Positions 14,567 to 34,504 of a stretch of DNA of 34,620 bases are shown here, piece by piece. The notes below the pieces were generated by a model. That model was not told where the DNA came from and did no database searches. It saw nothing but the letters and a program-made list of their open reading frames with translations. This DNA comes from a virus. How positions within the stretch are numbered: the stretch's first letter is position 1; the number at the start of each line of letters is the position of its first letter. The DNA lies in the IMG/VR virus record IMGVR_UViG_3300005831_000036, positions 1 through 34,620 of that record; one strand, given 5' to 3'. The translations under genes and the position numbers were made by a program.

Positions 14567-15751
14567 ATGGAATTACCACGAAAGATTGCCAAAGCCTTAA
14601 CATACCCCCTACATTCTCGCTACAGAGTGTTTTATGGTGGACGCGGCAGTGGTAAATCGTGGAGTATAGCAAAAATGCTCTTAATGATAGCCTGTGCTAG
14701 GCGTATTCGAGTGCTTTGCGCGCGTGAGTACCAAATCAGCATGGCCGATTCTGTGCACAAGCTATTATCAGAGAAAATCGACGAACTAGGCTTATCAGAA
14801 TACTTTGAGATACAGAAAACTACCATTATATGCAAGCTGACAGGCAGTGAGTTTATATTTCGTGGACTGCATCACAATGCTAACGAGATTAAATCAATGG
14901 AAGGGCTTGACTATGTATGGGTAGAGGAAGCGGAAAAGGTATCTGAAGAGTCATGGTCTTTACTTGTGCCAACAGTTCGCAAGCCTGATAGTGAAATATG
15001 GGTAAGCTTTAACCCTCATCGACAGACAGACCCGACATACCAGCGCTTCATTAAAAACACGCCGCCTAATTGCACGCTATGCAGGGTAAACGCCGATGAT
15101 AACCCATGGTTTCCTGACGTTTTGCGTGCAGAAATGGAATGGGATAGAAAGACCAATACGGATAAGTATCTCTGGATATGGGCAGGTAATCCGGTTGGCA
15201 TAAGCGCAGCACAGGTATTCCGTGGTAAGTATGTAGTAGACGTTACACCGGAACCAAATGAGAAAGATCATCTATTCTACGGTGCAGATTGGGGCTTTGC
15301 TAATGACCCAACAGCCTTAATACGCTGCTTTGTCCGTGATCGTATTTTATACATAGATCATGAAGCCGGTGGCGTAGGTATCGAGATTGACGAACTGCCG
15401 GCTTTGTTTTCTAGGATGCCTGACTCTGGTAAATGGCCGATATACGCCGATTGCGCTAGGCCTGAAACAATCAGCTTTGTAAAGCGAAAAGGCTATAATA
15501 TAAAAGCCGCGCCTAAATGGGCAGGAAGTATTGAGGATGGAATAGCCTACATTAAAAGCTTTGAAAGAATCGTGGTAAATCCGCGCTGTAAAAACATGAT
15601 TCAAGAGTTTGAGTTATACCAGTATAAACAAGACCGCTTAACAGGCGACATACTGCCTATCGTGGTAGACGCTAACAACCATTACCAGGATGCGCTTAGG
15701 TATGCCCTAGCCGATTATATAAAATCAAAAGACTTCGCTTTTTCTCTATAA
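14567..15751 (+). CDS. terL: Large terminase subunit (ATPase-nuclease)
   Basis: 394 residues. Walker A GGRGSGKS (24-31), Walker B VWVEEAE (about 117-123), and a coupling-type SFNP (147-150). In the RNase H-like nuclease Asp241 lies in YGADWGFANDP, Asp295 in YADCARPE, and a third acidic residue in VDANNHYQDALRYALAD near the end. This is the PBSX/phage terminase large type. It pumps DNA into the prohead and cuts concatemers. There is little SD before the ATG, so translation is probably coupled to terS. Length is usual for the family. Confidence 0.95.
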   Translation: MELPRKIAKALTYPLHSRYRVFYGGRGSGKSWSIAKMLLMIACARRIRVLCAREYQISMADSVHKLLSEKIDELGLSEYFEIQKTTIICKLTGSEFIFRGLHHNANEIKSMEGLDYVWVEEAEKVSEESWSLLVPTVRKPDSEIWVSFNPHRQTDPTYQRFIKNTPPNCTLCRVNADDNPWFPDVLRAEMEWDRKTNTDKYLWIWAGNPVGISAAQVFRGKYVVDVTPEPNEKDHLFYGADWGFANDPTALIRCFVRDRILYIDHEAGGVGIEIDELPALFSRMPDSGKWPIYADCARPETISFVKRKGYNIKAAPKWAGSIEDGIAYIKSFERIVVNPRCKNMIQEFELYQYKQDRLTGDILPIVVDANNHYQDALRYALADYIKSKDFAFSL

Positions 15752-16839: not shown

Positions 16840-16917
16840 GGAGGTGATAAGATTAAGCTAAGTTTGAATTTCACGCCCGCCTATTCCTTCTTGAAAGGTA
16901 CGGCGGGCAAACTTTAA
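16840..16917 (+). other. Strong SD with no standard start codon, and hairpin
   Basis: GGAGGTGAT (16840-16848) is a near-perfect SD, but the codon at the right distance is ATT (16852). The frame that follows is 21 codons (IKLSLNFTPAYSFLKG at the start) ending in TAA at 16917. GCCCGCC/GGCGGGC (16875-16908) forms a 7-bp stem within it. It may be a non-AUG micro-gene, a regulatory leader for the B-box gene, or a decayed gene. Confidence 0.35.
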
Positions 16918-16926
16918 GGGGTATTT

Positions 16927-17148
16927 ATGATTAAACAGATAAACATTTCATACTGTCATGTATGCAAAGCGCCTAGTATGTACCAATGCACAGACTGTAT
17001 GGTAAAGCTATGCCAGGCTTGCGCTAGTACCCATGAGTGCAAGAAAGAGCCGGTAAAAAATGTCGAGGTCGACAACTTTGTCGAATCCAAGCCGTTTAAC
17101 CCTGAAACAGTTAAGCCGTTTGTAACCACGCCGAAGCGCAAGAGATAA
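16927..17148 (+). CDS. B-box-type zinc-finger protein
   Basis: 73 residues. Residues 10-38 give CHVC-x6-CTDC-x4-CQAC-x3-H-x-C, the ligand order of a B-box zinc finger. The C-terminal half is Pro/Lys-rich and ends PKRKR. B-boxes are typical of eukaryotic TRIM proteins and protein-protein contacts, and occur occasionally in bacteria. The SD TTAAGGGG is close to the ATG. It sits between the NUMOD-like gene and the ferritin promoter. Function unknown; a host-interaction or assembly adaptor is possible. Confidence 0.65.
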   Translation: MIKQINISYCHVCKAPSMYQCTDCMVKLCQACASTHECKKEPVKNVEVDNFVESKPFNPETVKPFVTTPKRKR

Positions 17149-17151
17149 TAC

Positions 17152-17180
17152 TTGACAAGTACTTGACAAACGTGTAGTAT
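17152..17180 (+). promoter_or_regulatory. Promoter of ferritin-portal unit
   Basis: TTGACA (17152-17157), 17-base spacer, TAGTAT (17175-17180). It overlaps a direct repeat (ACTTGACAA twice) and a perfect palindrome CAAGTACTTG. It shares GTACTTGACA-type sequence and GTGTAGTAT with the promoter at 21696. A small AAGGG/CCCTT hairpin lies in the leader before the SD. Confidence 0.75.
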
Positions 17181-17217
17181 TCGTGCTAAGGGAAAACCCC
17201 TTACACGGAGGCACCGT

Positions 17218-17760
17218 TTGAAGATTAGCACCTCACTTCTTGCACTTCTGCAAGATCAGTACAATCATGAACAACATAACCATTTTATTTACTCGCAGCT
17301 TTCGTCATGGTGCGACTATTACGGCATGACAGGCACCGCATCATTCTTGCGTAAGCAGGCTAAAGGCGAGCTAGACCACGCTGAAAAGGTCATGACTTTC
17401 ATTACAGACCGTAATGAGCAACTAGGCGAAGTATTACCACTCTATATGCAGCCAAAGCCAGCGAACTTCCGGGGCGTGTTTGAAGCCATCTATGATCGTG
17501 AGGTATTGACAACTGAAAAGCTGTCTAACATCTACAAACAAGCCGTAATCGAGTACGATACACTAGCCATGGCATGGCTTATGGGCGATTCAGGGCTACT
17601 TATTGAACAGGTAGAGGAAGAAAACGTTATACAGACCATACTTGACCGCATCGATGCCAGGATGAATCAAAGCTTGTCCGTATCAGTTGAGCCAATCTCA
17701 ATGGCACCTGATTCAGGTGGCGCACTACATGACCTTGATGTGTTTATCGGTGGTTTATAA
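17218..17760 (+). CDS. Ferritin (Ftn-type iron-storage protein)
   Basis: 180 residues, TTG start after GGAGG at spacing 6. The full four-helix ferritin pattern is present, with ligands matching the E. coli FtnA ferroxidase site: Glu18, Glu51, His54 (ELDH), Glu95 (DREV), Glu130, Gln131, Glu133, Glu134 (IEQVEEEN). The stretch SSWCDYYGMTGTASFLRKQA matches the bacterial FtnA signature. Length is near the 165 of FtnA plus a short C-terminal tail. It would oxidise Fe(II) and store Fe(III) in a 24-mer shell. Its TAA overlaps the portal ATG by one base, so it is translated with a virion gene, and it has its own promoter. Dps and rubrerythrin are less likely because all Ftn ligands are in one chain. 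Confidence 0.9.
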   Translation: MKISTSLLALLQDQYNHEQHNHFIYSQLSSWCDYYGMTGTASFLRKQAKGELDHAEKVMTFITDRNEQLGEVLPLYMQPKPANFRGVFEAIYDREVLTTEKLSNIYKQAVIEYDTLAMAWLMGDSGLLIEQVEEENVIQTILDRIDARMNQSLSVSVEPISMAPDSGGALHDLDVFIGGL

Positions 17761-19883
17761 TGGGAATCATAGACCGCATTAAAGCCGCCAATCCGTTCGC
17801 ATCGAATCGGTCGGCCGCGCTAAGCCGTGTATGGTCACAGGCGCCACGCCTTGAGACTACGCGTTTACCTGACATGTTCTATAAAAGCCCTAGACTGGAT
17901 TCAGTGGACATGATAGCGGAAGCGGTGGCAGGTACATCGCTTTGCTTATATGATACTAAACAGCGTCGCAATAATCCCGATGAAGCCAAGAAACTGATAG
18001 ATCACCCGTTCCTAGACCTGATTGAACAGCCTTCAAGGGCATTCCCTGAGATAGACGGGCATCAATTACTAAAGATTATAGCGAGTTTTAATATACTATT
18101 AGGTGAAGGCTTTGTTGTAAAGGTACGCTCGGGCGGTACGGGTAGCAAGATAAACGAACTATTGTTTTTCCCGCCTTCATGGTGTACGCAAGTGCCAACC
18201 AACGGAAACCCAAATTTTCAGTTTATACCTTTTGGAGCCGCTGCTGGCCGTGCAATTACACTACCGCCAGAAGACGTTATCTGGTTTAAACGCGCTGACA
18301 TTTCAGACCCGTACGGTCGAGGTCGCGGACGCACAGAGCCAATCGGCGATGAAATCGATACCGACGAAATGAGTGCTAAGTTTCAAAAGAACACCATGTA
18401 CAACGATGGGTCAACGCCTTTCTGGGCTAACCTTCCAGGCGTAGACAAGGCAGGGCTTGATACATTAAAAGACGGATGGGCGCAAAAAGTATCAGGATGG
18501 CTTAACGCTAGAAAGCCTGCCTTTACTAACGCGGATAAGCTTGAGATCGTTAAGCTAGGCGAAAACATGAAAGACTTGGACTTTATCGAGTCCAGAAAGT
18601 TCTTGCGTGACGAATGTATTCATCATTACAAGATCCCGCCTGAAATGTTTGGCATACTTGAAAACTCAAACCGCTCGACTATCGACGCAAGTTACTACCA
18701 CTTTGCAAAGATGGCTGTAAAGCCTGAACTAGACTTTATAGCACGCGTATTCACTACACAGCTCTTACAATGTGACTTTGACGCAAGGTTAACTTGCGAC
18801 TTTGACTTTACCATTCCAGAAGACGAAGACTTCAGACTTAAAAAGGTAAACGAGGGCGTTGCTCGTGGAATGCTAACCCGTGGCGAATGGAAAAAAGCTA
18901 TGGGCTATCCTGTTTTACCTAGTGACAACGTTTACATTATGCCCGCAAACTTTATAGAAGTGCCACAAGGTCAAGCAATCCCAAAGCCTATTGCACCCGT
19001 AAAGCCTGCCTTAGAAGCGCCTAAACTTGAGGAACCGGAAGAACCCAAAGAGGAACCAGAGCCTGAAAAGCCGGTTAAGGCATACTTTACATTAAAGAGT
19101 GAAGAAAAGCTTGATGTGAAGCGTGAAGCTATCTGGAAAAGCGCAGACGCGGCCATGACTAAGAACGAGAACGGCTTTAAGGAAGCAGTCAAGAAGTTTG
19201 CTAATAACCAGTTGAGCCGAATAAGCATTAAAGATTATTCTACCGTTGAAAGCTGCATGAAGGGCGTTGACAAGGCGTTTATTGGAGCCGACGATGCACT
19301 GAAGCGGGCCTTACGTCCTGCATGGCTAGATGCTATGCAATCGGGCTATAATGTCGCACGTGACCAGTTAGGCATGAAAGGCTTATTTGACCTTGTAAAC
19401 GAGTACTTTTCTAAGTGGGTAGAAAAAGAAGGGCTGAAGCTTGCTAAGGACATAAACGGCACCACTTACGATGCACTTAGAGCTAAGATTCAAGAGTCTA
19501 TCAAGGCGGGCATTGAAGCAGGCGATAGCATGGCTAAGATCGGAAAGCAAGTCGATGCTGATTGTATTTTTATTTACACGCAAATGACAGAATCACGGGC
19601 TGAACTGATTGCACGGACTGAAACCATGCGTAGCGTGAACTTCGGGTCTTTTGTTACCTACAAACAGACAGGCGTTGAAAAGATTGAATGGATTGCAAGT
19701 CCCGGGAAGTCTACCCGTGAAGCTCACAGAGTCGGGGCGGCTTTCGGAGCACCTTTGATTGCCGATATTGACAAAGGATTTATGATAGGCGGAGAGCGTC
19801 TAATGTTTCCAGGTGACCCTAACGGAAGCGCAAGCAATACTTGTAATTGCAGGTGTACTACCGCTGCGATTATAGAACTATAA
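17760..19883 (+). CDS. Portal protein fused to MuF-type minor head protein
   Basis: 707 residues. Residues about 1-400 are an HK97/SPP1-type portal (DMFYKSPRLDSVDMIAEAV near the start; DECIHHYKIPPEMFGILENSNRS near 285-305; GMLTRGEWKKAMGYP). Residues about 400-440 are a Pro/Glu linker (EEPEEPKEEPEPEKP). Residues about 450-707 are a MuF head-morphogenesis domain: LIARTETMRSVNFGSFVTYK, WIASPGKSTREAHR, and a Cys-rich end NTCNCRCTTAA. Portals and MuF proteins are usually separate neighbouring genes; here they are one frame with no internal stop. It would form the DNA channel, with a MuF domain inside the head. It starts on the ferritin stop. Confidence 0.9.
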   Translation: MGIIDRIKAANPFASNRSAALSRVWSQAPRLETTRLPDMFYKSPRLDSVDMIAEAVAGTSLCLYDTKQRRNNPDEAKKLIDHPFLDLIEQPSRAFPEIDGHQLLKIIASFNILLGEGFVVKVRSGGTGSKINELLFFPPSWCTQVPTNGNPNFQFIPFGAAAGRAITLPPEDVIWFKRADISDPYGRGRGRTEPIGDEIDTDEMSAKFQKNTMYNDGSTPFWANLPGVDKAGLDTLKDGWAQKVSGWLNARKPAFTNADKLEIVKLGENMKDLDFIESRKFLRDECIHHYKIPPEMFGILENSNRSTIDASYYHFAKMAVKPELDFIARVFTTQLLQCDFDARLTCDFDFTIPEDEDFRLKKVNEGVARGMLTRGEWKKAMGYPVLPSDNVYIMPANFIEVPQGQAIPKPIAPVKPALEAPKLEEPEEPKEEPEPEKPVKAYFTLKSEEKLDVKREAIWKSADAAMTKNENGFKEAVKKFANNQLSRISIKDYSTVESCMKGVDKAFIGADDALKRALRPAWLDAMQSGYNVARDQLGMKGLFDLVNEYFSKWVEKEGLKLAKDINGTTYDALRAKIQESIKAGIEAGDSMAKIGKQVDADCIFIYTQMTESRAELIARTETMRSVNFGSFVTYKQTGVEKIEWIASPGKSTREAHRVGAAFGAPLIADIDKGFMIGGERLMFPGDPNGSASNTCNCRCTTAAIIEL

Positions 19884-21765: not shown

Positions 21766-22536
21766 ATGGACAGCGCTCAAAAGCACTATACCGTAAAATC
21801 CCAGACCCTGGCCGATAGAACCATACGTTTTATTGGCTCTGACGAATCAATCGACCGTGACGGTGACACCATTGCACTAGACGGATGGGACATCAAGAAT
21901 TACATGGCTAACCCCGTAGCACTCTACGGGCATAACTCACTTGGCTTTCCAGTCGGCAAAACTCAAAGCATTACAATTGACAAACGCTCTGGCAAGATGT
22001 TTTTTGACATCTCGTTCCCTACCATTGAAGAACTTTCAAGCAATCCAAAAACTCCAAGCGAGCAAGCGCTAACAGTCGATGCAATTTATTGCATGGCAAA
22101 GGCAGGGCTTTTAAATGCCGTATCAGTAGGCTTTAGGGGCTTAGAGTATGAACCGATTGCAACGGGTAGAGCCTACAAAAAGCAAGAACTTATTGAAATA
22201 TCCATAGTACCTGTACCTGCTAATCCTAACGCGCTTGCCGTGTTAAGGTCGGCTAACACACAGGAAACCGTAATAAAAGGACTTAACATGGACATACAAG
22301 AAAAATCAGGCGCTCGCCTGTCTGCAAAGTCTAAAGAACGCCTTGCCCGCATACGTGCGAAATGCAACGACGTTATGAAAGAGCTTGACGACTTTGAGAA
22401 TGAACCTAATGTAAACGAGGAAGAACAGGGCGCACAGACTGCACCTTCTAACAACATACCACCTGAAAAATCTGCGGAAGCACCGCAAGCTAAAGCATAT
22501 TTTACTTTCGTTGAGAAAAACTCAACTGACAAATAA
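21766..22536 (+). CDS. HK97-type prohead protease
   Basis: 256 residues. His56 in LYGHNS, Ser120 in LLNAVSVGF, and the usual ELIEISIVPVPANPNAL stretch (about 143-160) identify the U35/S78 prohead protease, which cleaves the capsid delta/scaffold domain after assembly. The C-terminal about 80 residues are extended and Glu/Pro/Ala-rich, perhaps with scaffold function, ending KAYFTFVEKNSTDK. The motif KAYFT also occurs in the portal linker (about residue 440). It is downstream of a strong promoter and directly before the capsid gene. Confidence 0.9.
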   Translation: MDSAQKHYTVKSQTLADRTIRFIGSDESIDRDGDTIALDGWDIKNYMANPVALYGHNSLGFPVGKTQSITIDKRSGKMFFDISFPTIEELSSNPKTPSEQALTVDAIYCMAKAGLLNAVSVGFRGLEYEPIATGRAYKKQELIEISIVPVPANPNALAVLRSANTQETVIKGLNMDIQEKSGARLSAKSKERLARIRAKCNDVMKELDDFENEPNVNEEEQGAQTAPSNNIPPEKSAEAPQAKAYFTFVEKNSTDK

Positions 22537-22546
22537 GGAGTTATTC

Positions 22547-23728
22547 ATGGAAATGAACAAAGAACAATTTGATGCCATGCTCAACGAAACAGTTGAGAAA
22601 AAATTGGCTGAAAAGCAGGCTGAACAAAAGAAAAGCCTGAGAGCGGACTTCCAAGAGGCTTATGAGGCCAATCAGAAGTATGTAGAAAACAAAGGCTATA
22701 AAGAAGAAGCACCGGTTATCAAAGCCGCACGCCTCATTCGTCTAGCCGCTGCGGGTGCTTGTAACCCAGAACGCATGCTTGAAATCGCAAAGACTTCATG
22801 CCCTGACGATATGGAAATCAAAGGCTATGTACAGAAAGCCCTTGAAGCCGGCGTACCTACTAACGGCGGATTCGGTATTCCCGCACCTTTATCAGGACGC
22901 GTTATCGAAGCTCTTTATGCTAACACCCTGCTTGAGAAAACAGGCGTTTCACGCATTCCACTTGCCGCCGGTCGCTTAGACATGGCTAGAATGGACACCT
23001 CAAGCACAGTTGGTTGGGTTGGCGAACTGCCTACCAATACACCAACACAGCCCGTATTCGGTCAAGTATCTTTACAGGCTAAAAAGCTTGGCGCTAACTG
23101 CGAAATCAGTAACTCACTTTTACGATATAACAGTGTAGGAATTGATTCATGGGTAGCAAAAGACTTAAGCCACAAGTTTAAGATCGCACTTGATGCAGCT
23201 ATGCTTTATGGTGCTGGTACACAGTACACACCATCAGGCCTTACTAACTTAGGCGTACAGACAATCGGAAGCGCATCTACTGCACTTACACAAACAGCAC
23301 CTCGCGACATGATTGCTTTACTCAAAGCCGCTAACGTTGACATGACTAACGTAATCTGGATGATGTCACCACAGATGGAATCATGGCTCTTGAACCTCAA
23401 AACCACTACTGGCGCATGGATTTTCTTACCAGAAATGACCGAACGTGGTACACTTTGCGGATTCAAATACCTTGTTTCAACTAGCGTATCTTATACCGAT
23501 ACTACTACCGACTATGGTGATTTATGGCTTGGTGATTTTGATTACTTCATGTGGGGTGTAGGCCTTGATATGGAACTCAGAATGTCACAAGACGCATCAT
23601 ACGTATCAGGCGGAACCACTTACTCTGCATTCCAGAGAGACAGTACTTTAATTCGCGTTATTGGTGAACATGACTTCAATGTTATGCAACCAAAAGCGTT
23701 CGTTAAAGGAACCTGGTCAGTAGCTTAA
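22547..23728 (+). CDS. HK97-fold major capsid protein
   Basis: 393 residues from ATG 22547 (AAGGAG; a longer frame from 22511 overlaps the protease). An N-terminal charged coiled-coil delta/scaffold region (about 1-100, EKKLAEKQAEQKKSLRADF) is followed by the HK97 fold: GGFGIPAPLSGRVIEALYA, SSTVGWVGELPTNTPT, ANCEISNSLLRYN, LDAAMLYGAG, and a C-terminal QRDSTLIRVIGEHDFNV. Length and order fit. It builds the icosahedral shell, probably cleaved near residue 105 by the protease. It is followed by a hairpin that may limit downstream transcription. Confidence 0.9.
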   Translation: MEMNKEQFDAMLNETVEKKLAEKQAEQKKSLRADFQEAYEANQKYVENKGYKEEAPVIKAARLIRLAAAGACNPERMLEIAKTSCPDDMEIKGYVQKALEAGVPTNGGFGIPAPLSGRVIEALYANTLLEKTGVSRIPLAAGRLDMARMDTSSTVGWVGELPTNTPTQPVFGQVSLQAKKLGANCEISNSLLRYNSVGIDSWVAKDLSHKFKIALDAAMLYGAGTQYTPSGLTNLGVQTIGSASTALTQTAPRDMIALLKAANVDMTNVIWMMSPQMESWLLNLKTTTGAWIFLPEMTERGTLCGFKYLVSTSVSYTDTTTDYGDLWLGDFDYFMWGVGLDMELRMSQDASYVSGGTTYSAFQRDSTLIRVIGEHDFNVMQPKAFVKGTWSVA

Positions 23729-33685: not shown

Positions 33686-33704
33686 TCTTAATAAGGGGTA
33701 AAAA

Positions 33705-34004
33705 ATGAGTGCCGATTTAATTGCTATCGTTGTATCTATTCTTAGTGTTTTAGTAAGCCTTTCTATTATTGCAAGTTTTTTCTATGCAAGAATGAAAGAC
33801 GCAGAAGACCGGGGTAGGCAGAAGGAACGGATAGACAAGCTAGAAGCGCAACAAAAAGCGCATGAAGATGCAGTTGAAAAAAAGTTTGACAAGAACGATA
33901 TCCAATTTGAAAAGGTTTTGGACAAACTAGAAAAAATATCATGCGATTTAAGAATGTACTTTGACACCCATGTGCAAAACTACCATAGGGAAGGCAAAGA
34001 ATGA
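33705..34004 (+). CDS. Membrane-anchored coiled-coil protein, copy 2
   Basis: 99 residues, SD AAGGGG. TM helix at about 5-27 (LIAIVVSILSVLVSLSIIASFF), then a heptad-rich helix to about 85 (IDKLEAQQKAHEDAVEKKFD). This is the complete form of the truncated gene at 1-216. Topology suggests an inner-membrane anchor with cytoplasmic or periplasmic coiled coil. Starts the second lysis-type cassette after the tail genes; ends with an ATGA overlap with the peptidase-like gene. Confidence 0.7.
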   Translation: MSADLIAIVVSILSVLVSLSIIASFFYARMKDAEDRGRQKERIDKLEAQQKAHEDAVEKKFDKNDIQFEKVLDKLEKISCDLRMYFDTHVQNYHREGKE

Positions 34005-34504
34005 TCGAACTACCAAAAACAATAGACCTACCTAAACAAACAGAAAGCCCGTCAAGCCATGTCCGCGGGTATGGCTGCAAGGCCCATAGTGACATGGGTA
34101 TGGTGCAACTATACCTAAAACACGGTATGGCACCTGAAGAAGTGCTTTTAGTCATTGAGCGGGCTATTAAAGCGGGCTTTATTCTGGATAACACGCTACC
34201 TACCTCTCAAAACGGCTGGTATAGATGCTTTGTGAAAGACCCTGTAAGCCTAATAGCCTTGACCGGTGAATACTTTGGGCGCAAGATAAGCGGTAAAGAG
34301 CTAAGCCGTGGAGTCCCGGATAGTAAGAACATTCCGCTCAGGTACGATTTTATGCAGATTGAATGGGCAACGGATATAGGTAGCCATTTCGGGCTAGGCG
34401 ACTGGGTTAATGGTAAGATTGAAACGATGTATAACCCATGGCCAAGCTTAAAAGTAAACGGTATTCGTACTGTTAGATATTGGCGCATATTTGAGACAGC
34501 TTAA
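34001..34504 (+). CDS. Candidate C39-like cysteine peptidase (possible endolysin), copy 2
   Basis: 167 residues; the homologue at 213-698 lacks 6 N-terminal residues. Conserved: Cys26 (GYGC), Cys76 (WYRCFVKD), His129 (GSHFGLGDW), Asn145 (YNPW). This gives the Cys-His-Asn order of papain-like C39 peptidases. A long middle block (SLIALTGEYFGRKISGKEL) is nearly identical in both copies. No signal peptide is seen, so holin-dependent release would be needed if it is a lysin. Alternative: a non-lytic peptidase or a tail-associated protein. Function is an inference. Confidence 0.55.
   Translation: MIELPKTIDLPKQTESPSSHVRGYGCKAHSDMGMVQLYLKHGMAPEEVLLVIERAIKAGFILDNTLPTSQNGWYRCFVKDPVSLIALTGEYFGRKISGKELSRGVPDSKNIPLRYDFMQIEWATDIGSHFGLGDWVNGKIETMYNPWPSLKVNGIRTVRYWRIFETA

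Follow-up and report, generated by a model that had tools for sequence, protein, structure and literature searches.

The stretch of DNA analysed here (the window) is a 34,620-base IMG/VR virus record, whose head gene block contains a non-heme ferritin gene directly before the portal gene (Table 1). The left part of the block runs from the terminase large subunit through two small ORFs, one of them with a NUMOD1 domain, and a Cys-rich ORF to ferritin and portal, which is followed by the genes for the prohead protease, the HK97-type capsid protein, connectors, the tail tube and the tape measure. The surrounding terminase, portal, protease and capsid genes bear out the location within a phage head operon that had been proposed in the initial annotation. 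None of the genes in the window was recognised as an integrase. The two contig ends carry diverged copies of a two-gene unit (positions 1-698 and 33702-34504; 550 of 806 aligned columns identical), which represent either a true duplication of this gene pair close to the tail genes or the related ends of a permuted genome. The peptide KAYFT[LF] is found in the portal linker near 19080 and at the C-terminus of the protease near 22500, and a similar pair is present in the related contig L002.

Table 1. Features of the head gene block and of two crAss-like contigs (window positions unless a contig is named)
Feature	Position	Strand	Basis or remark
Terminase large subunit	14567..15751	+	PF04466; exchanged between ferritin-portal lineages
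Small Cys-rich, B-box-like zinc-finger ORF before ferritin	16927..17148	+	PF22586 below cut-off; conservation
Promoter-like site TTGACA-17-TAGTAT before ferritin	17152..17180	+	Consensus match plus conservation in L002 only
Shine-Dalgarno GGAGG of ferritin	17207..17211	+	Sequence; also in L002
Non-heme ferritin, 180 aa, TTG start	17218..17760	+	PF00210, AF2, VIA-align, position before portal
3-residue insertion Gly-Asp-Ser 123-125	17584..17592, approximate	+	Alignment with cellular ferritins; AF2 helices 115-122 and 127-154
E helix, residues 166-179	17713..17754	+	Confident in AF2; aligns with EcFtnA E helix
Portal protein, C-terminal Mu-F domain, ATG start	17760..19883	+	PF04860 E 1.4e-36, PF04233 E 9e-10
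Prohead protease	21766..22536	+	PF04586
HK97-type major capsid protein	22511..23728	+	PF05065 E 2e-42
crAss-like ferritins	L119:1340-1891, L143:2209-2763		After portal, before capsid gene

The 180-residue product is a complete Ftn-type ferritin, as originally annotated, and the profile search and the structure prediction both place it inside the ferritins. It matches the Pfam family Ferritin with an E-value of 1.6e-18 (67.4 bits, cut-off 24.5) as well as PHROG 16594 (no name), and the 51 PDB sequence matches are headed by the E. coli non-heme ferritin (E 3e-16). Its score with the NCBIfam equivalog for FtnA (NF007638) is 61.2 bits, below the 178-bit cut-off; on sequence grounds the protein is a relative of ferritin and not an FtnA orthologue. 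No bacterioferritin is among the named PDB sequence matches, and residue 52 is Leu, not the bacterioferritin heme ligand Met52. The Dps family gave no match in Pfam or NCBIfam, and an E helix is predicted.

The AlphaFold2 model has a pLDDT of 86.9 and was calculated from an alignment of 31 ferritins, comprising the protein of the window and others from viral contigs; it replaced a run with two sequences that had reached a pLDDT of 46. The predicted helices (5-34, 38-64, 84-111, 115-122 with 127-154, and 166-179) correspond to a four-helix bundle plus a short E helix. T. maritima and E. coli ferritins rank first in Foldseek (TM-score about 0.85), and VIA-align superimposes residues 1-180 on TmFtn and EcFtnA with Z about 23 and an rmsd of 1.1-1.6 A, the Z of 23 spanning 162 residues of TmFtn. 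Matches among predicted viral structures included a non-heme ferritin from an uncultured marine phage.

The ferroxidase ligands listed in the initial annotation (Glu18, Glu51, His54, Glu95, Glu130, Gln131, Glu133 and Glu134) were all recovered at those positions. Together with E135 they are invariant in the 31-ferritin alignment from viral contigs, and the same set from E18 to E135 is kept in all 11 aligned full-length family members, which are 36-81% identical to the protein of the window. E18, E51, H54, E95, Q131 and E134 are also identical in the aligned ferritins of E. coli, Salmonella, S. aureus, Halobellus and Bacteroidales. The alignments thus indicate that the ligands of di-iron sites A and B are all present, and fold and alignment together suggest that they meet in space. 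The fragment on contig L180 reads EQIAEE in place of the EQVEEE of the other members, so this one member may be losing a ligand.

FtnA of E. coli (1eum, 9bye) and of T. maritima (1vlg) has the same fold, including the E helix, and the same site A and B ligands, at 26-28% identity to the protein of the window. The latter differs from FtnA in being phage-encoded and located before a portal gene, and in three structural respects. Site C, which consists of Glu49, Glu126, Glu129 and Glu130 in EcFtnA, retains three of its four residues, Gly50 replacing the equivalent of Glu49; this position is Gly in 10 and Asp in one of the 11 family members. Not all ferritins have a site C. The Gly-Asp-Ser insertion splits helix D directly before the EQVEEE ligand motif, and the D-E loop is 15 residues longer than in cellular ferritins. 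The missing site C glutamate in almost every member and the interrupted helix D could mean that iron handling differs from that of the cellular proteins. The tail motif HDLDxxIGxx is conserved and aligns with the E helix of cellular ferritins.

The GGAGG element ends six bases upstream of the TTG start, and both are the same in L002, an independent contig with the same gene arrangement (ferritin 81% and portal 75% identical to the window; portal search). The initial annotation had credited the gene with its own near-consensus promoter, and this claim holds in part: the candidate site matches the consensus at 10 of 12 positions and is kept in L002, but judged by itself it is weak, with five promoter-like sites of that quality in the region against 2.5 expected, and it characterises only part of the family. 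Similar sites with 10 or 11 of 12 matches lie 5' of the ferritin in L110, the L111 group and L165, and shuffled versions of the individual upstream stretches (window, L002, L110, L111 group, L165) reach an equal score in 0.2-2% of cases; none was found upstream of the ferritin in L114, L168, L183, L189 and L197. A GC-rich inverted repeat at 16866-16918, located 5' of the Cys-rich ORF, is kept in L002; its best Rfam hit is nuoG with a sub-threshold 17 bits, and the Rfam search returned no match over the cut-off.

Scans of viral contigs with one protein or two sequences as query returned no or one relative. The family became visible when cellular ferritins were added to the query of the window and L002 proteins, complemented by a scan for the portal family. 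On fifteen further contigs (L110-L115, L156, L165, L168, L173, L180, L183, L184, L189, L197) a member of this ferritin clade immediately precedes a homologous portal gene; L156 and L180 contain just the end of the ferritin gene. Including the window and L002, the ferritin-portal pair is present on 17 contigs from about ten lineages, so that the gene is found in relatives and is not the product of a chimeric contig. A profile from which the window and L002 had been left out scores these two at 189 bits, compared with at most 101 bits for all other ferritins tested, and the ferritins of this family are monophyletic (97/95). Two unusual ORFs were noted on these contigs: the terminase of L114 (2-2116) contains a long intein-like insertion with an HNH-like ORF in another frame, which is absent from the terminase of L115 (3061-4476), and L110 harbors between terminase and ferritin (2698-2985) a 95-residue ORF of nearly all Gly with Ala/Tyr/Asp/Asn repeats.

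Between the window and L002 the ferritin has a dN of 0.17 and a saturated dS of 2.3 (dN/dS about 0.07), similar to the portal (dN 0.21, dS 2.9); these rates indicate that the ferritin gene is under purifying selection. Pairwise distances of ferritin and portal are correlated (Mantel r 0.61, p 0.0004; without L002 r 0.48, p 0.005), and no similarity was detected between the terminase of the window and the terminases of L110, L111 and L115. The combination of correlated distances and dissimilar terminases is indicative of a joint inheritance of ferritin and portal with exchange of the terminase; judged from these comparisons, the pair outlives the replacement of its left neighbour.

The one-base overlap between the ferritin stop codon (TAA, 17758-17760) and the portal start codon (ATG, at 17760) was correctly described in the initial annotation, and the shared base is 17760. 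The TAATG junction recurs in L002, L110, L165 and L189, and it is represented by ATGA in the L111 group, L168 and L180, by GTGA in L197 and by a short gap in L114. The overlap had also been read as a special coupling of ferritin and portal, which did not hold: in the ferritin-less contigs L172 and L174-L177 the last base of the Cys-rich ORF coincides with the first base of the listed portal ORF. Since another gene overlaps the portal in the same way, the stop/start overlap is ruled out as proof of functional coupling and reflects a compact operon rather than a feature of the ferritin.

Ferritin-less relatives are frequent. Of the 44 portals placed on a tree, 17 have the ferritin and 27 lack it, a pattern that requires five gains or losses. 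The frequent absence from near relatives shows that the ferritin is dispensable, and its absence beside 27 of the 44 portals suggests that any benefit is conditional. The slot before the portal is occupied in ferritin-negative relatives by the Cys-rich ORF, HNH genes or other small ORFs. The Cys-rich ORF, which has a Lys/Pro-rich tail, stands before ferritin and/or portal in the window, L002, L110, L111, L170, L172 and L174-L177; it is common in the portal family, including relatives without ferritin.

The proposed search for ferritins adjoining portals in other phages was positive, and the result was broader than expected, with three unrelated portal families. A second ferritin family (alignment A9; contigs L226-L246, L117, L120, L145, L158 and L161), whose members have about 158 residues, is flanked by a phrog_2739 portal upstream and a phrog_3313 protein downstream; in 20 of 21 close contigs that portal lies at a distance between directly adjacent and about 1 kb. 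The ferritin gene of two crAss-like contigs begins 1-4 bases past a crAss-type portal (phrog_6547) and is followed within about 2.3 kb by the gene for the major capsid protein. Both groups thus carry the ferritin on the opposite side of the portal compared with the family of the window. As the contigs are interrelated and their counts not independent, three unrelated groups is the safe figure. Ferritins away from any recognised portal were found on four large viral contigs (L122, L136, L151, L152), and ferritin domains also occur within ORFs of 593 and 645 residues (L162:4563-6344, L248:3144-5081).

The clade is present in no INPHARED record. Ferritin matches in that database comprised S. aureus-labelled unannotated records, which match in the same way as S. 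aureus ftnA and are explained by this host gene rather than by a phage gene, and short unannotated faecal contigs, in which a portal of these families was undetected. The terminase of the window resembles that of Nitratiruptor phages (52.6%), whose annotated head genes include no ferritin, and no ferritin-portal pair was present at 80 genome loci with related terminases. The portal profile at E 1e-40 found none in 398 genomes from the phylum of G013 (Alphaproteobacteria MAG) and none in 390 genomes from the phylum of G016 (Desulfomicrobium); two matches, both without ferritin, were obtained in 398 genomes from the phylum of G018 (Oscillospiraceae). The ferritin profile retrieved from 395 genomes of the Desulfomicrobium phylum solely ferritins below 100 bits, scores that identify them as the cellular type.

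No description of a ferritin-portal linkage in phages was found in the open-access literature searched. Encapsulins with ferritin-like cargo resemble the window in combining an HK97-fold shell gene and a ferritin-type gene in one block; in the window, however, the shell gene codes for a phage capsid and is accompanied by terminase, portal, protease and tail genes, and the ferritin has retained its E helix. Encapsulated ferritins are loaded via a C-terminal peptide. A targeting peptide of this type was considered for the C-terminus of the window ferritin and is unsupported, as this part of the protein corresponds in the alignment to the E helix of cellular ferritins.

Ferritin-superfamily proteins of other viruses have been described repeatedly. 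Gratiaviridae and other gut phages encode Dps and Mn-catalase (PMC8008677), which are likewise phage-encoded iron or peroxide enzymes of the superfamily but belong to other families, Dps being a 12-mer mini-ferritin; we found no link to the portal reported for them. A Bathyarchaeia virus encodes a bacterioferritin described as an auxiliary metabolic gene (PMC10904782); it is a virus-encoded 24-mer-type protein under purifying selection, as in the window, yet a bacterioferritin of an archaeal virus. These enzymes have been interpreted in terms of iron or oxygen control (PMC8008677, PMC10904782), and a giant-virus ferritin, virus-encoded like ours but from viruses of eukaryotes, in terms of iron control in the infected cell (PMC7136201). 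Moreover, a Dps-like protein is known from Lactobacillus phages (PMC6669764), one ORF of phage PMBT24 has been called ferritin (PMC11035940), and a Phyre2-named ferritin was detected by mass spectrometry in Vi01-like phage particles (PMC10892097).

The explanation that we favour, and regard as somewhat more probable than the others taken together, is that of a functional ferritin, synthesised along with the head proteins, which would oxidise and store iron in the infected cell. It is based on the family assignment, the fold, the ligands, the E helix, purifying selection, co-inheritance with the portal and the recurrence beside unrelated portals. From these we infer the timing of expression, cage assembly, iron oxidation and a benefit to the phage. 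The gene, long inherited within the head block directly before the portal, would be expressed together with the head proteins, and a 24-mer-type cage would assemble through the four-helix bundle and the E helix. This cage would take up Fe(II), oxidise it at the di-iron centre and store the product as a ferric mineral within the infected cell. Free iron would most likely be kept from peroxide during replication and packaging of the phage DNA, and iron-driven DNA damage would be lowered; iron buffering may be an additional effect.

A fixed place by the portal in three unrelated groups nevertheless exceeds what a plain metabolic gene needs, and a function in the head could account for it. The ferritin would then be packaged in the capsid, sit by the portal or aid assembly, and bring an iron-oxidising or DNA-protecting activity into the particle. 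We consider this possible but rather unlikely. The three portal families and the co-inheritance with the portal while terminases change both argue for it, as does the ferritin named in Vi01-like particles (PMC10892097); predicted viral structures named prohead protease also show a weak alignment to the ferritin model (E 0.2-1). On the other hand, many near relatives have the same portal without the gene, which is therefore not needed for assembly, and the conserved tail, alignable with the cellular E helix, offers no clear targeting peptide. A wider version, which we put forward as a speculation and judge unlikely, is that tailed phages recruited full-length ferritins several times as head-module proteins, in or on the capsid or in portal-side assembly, as iron-oxidising or iron-carrying cargo of the virion. 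By analogy, this would be an encapsulin-like use by real viruses.

The portal slot may also simply accept cargo, in which case the ferritin would be an ordinary moron between terminase and portal, its place meaningless and its benefit an iron or redox advantage to the cell or lysogen. The HNH genes and other small ORFs that fill the slot in ferritin-less relatives fit this idea, and so do the patchy presence, the promoter-like site in part of the family and the four contigs with ferritins away from a recognised portal. We nonetheless regard it as distinctly improbable: one ferritin clade has stayed in one slot across about ten diverged lineages, with distances matching those of the portal, the two other groups have a ferritin on the other side of the portal, and a lysogen is hypothetical, no integrase having been recognised in the window. 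An artefact, either a host ferritin misassembled onto a phage contig or a ferritin fold without iron chemistry, is highly improbable. Some database 'phage' ferritins are indeed host contamination, as in the S. aureus-labelled record, but misassembly is refuted here by 17 contigs from many metagenomes with the arrangement in common, and the ligands are invariant and dN/dS is low.

Virus-encoded relatives of ferritin are known as scattered extra genes. In the window family a complete 24-mer-type ferritin is a long-lived member of the head block, fixed beside the portal. The occurrence of ferritins next to the portal in three unrelated groups, crAss-like phages among them, suggests that some phages manage iron while building new particles. 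Phage iron control or carriage thereby becomes testable at one defined gene pair, for which the ferritin-minus relatives represent natural controls.
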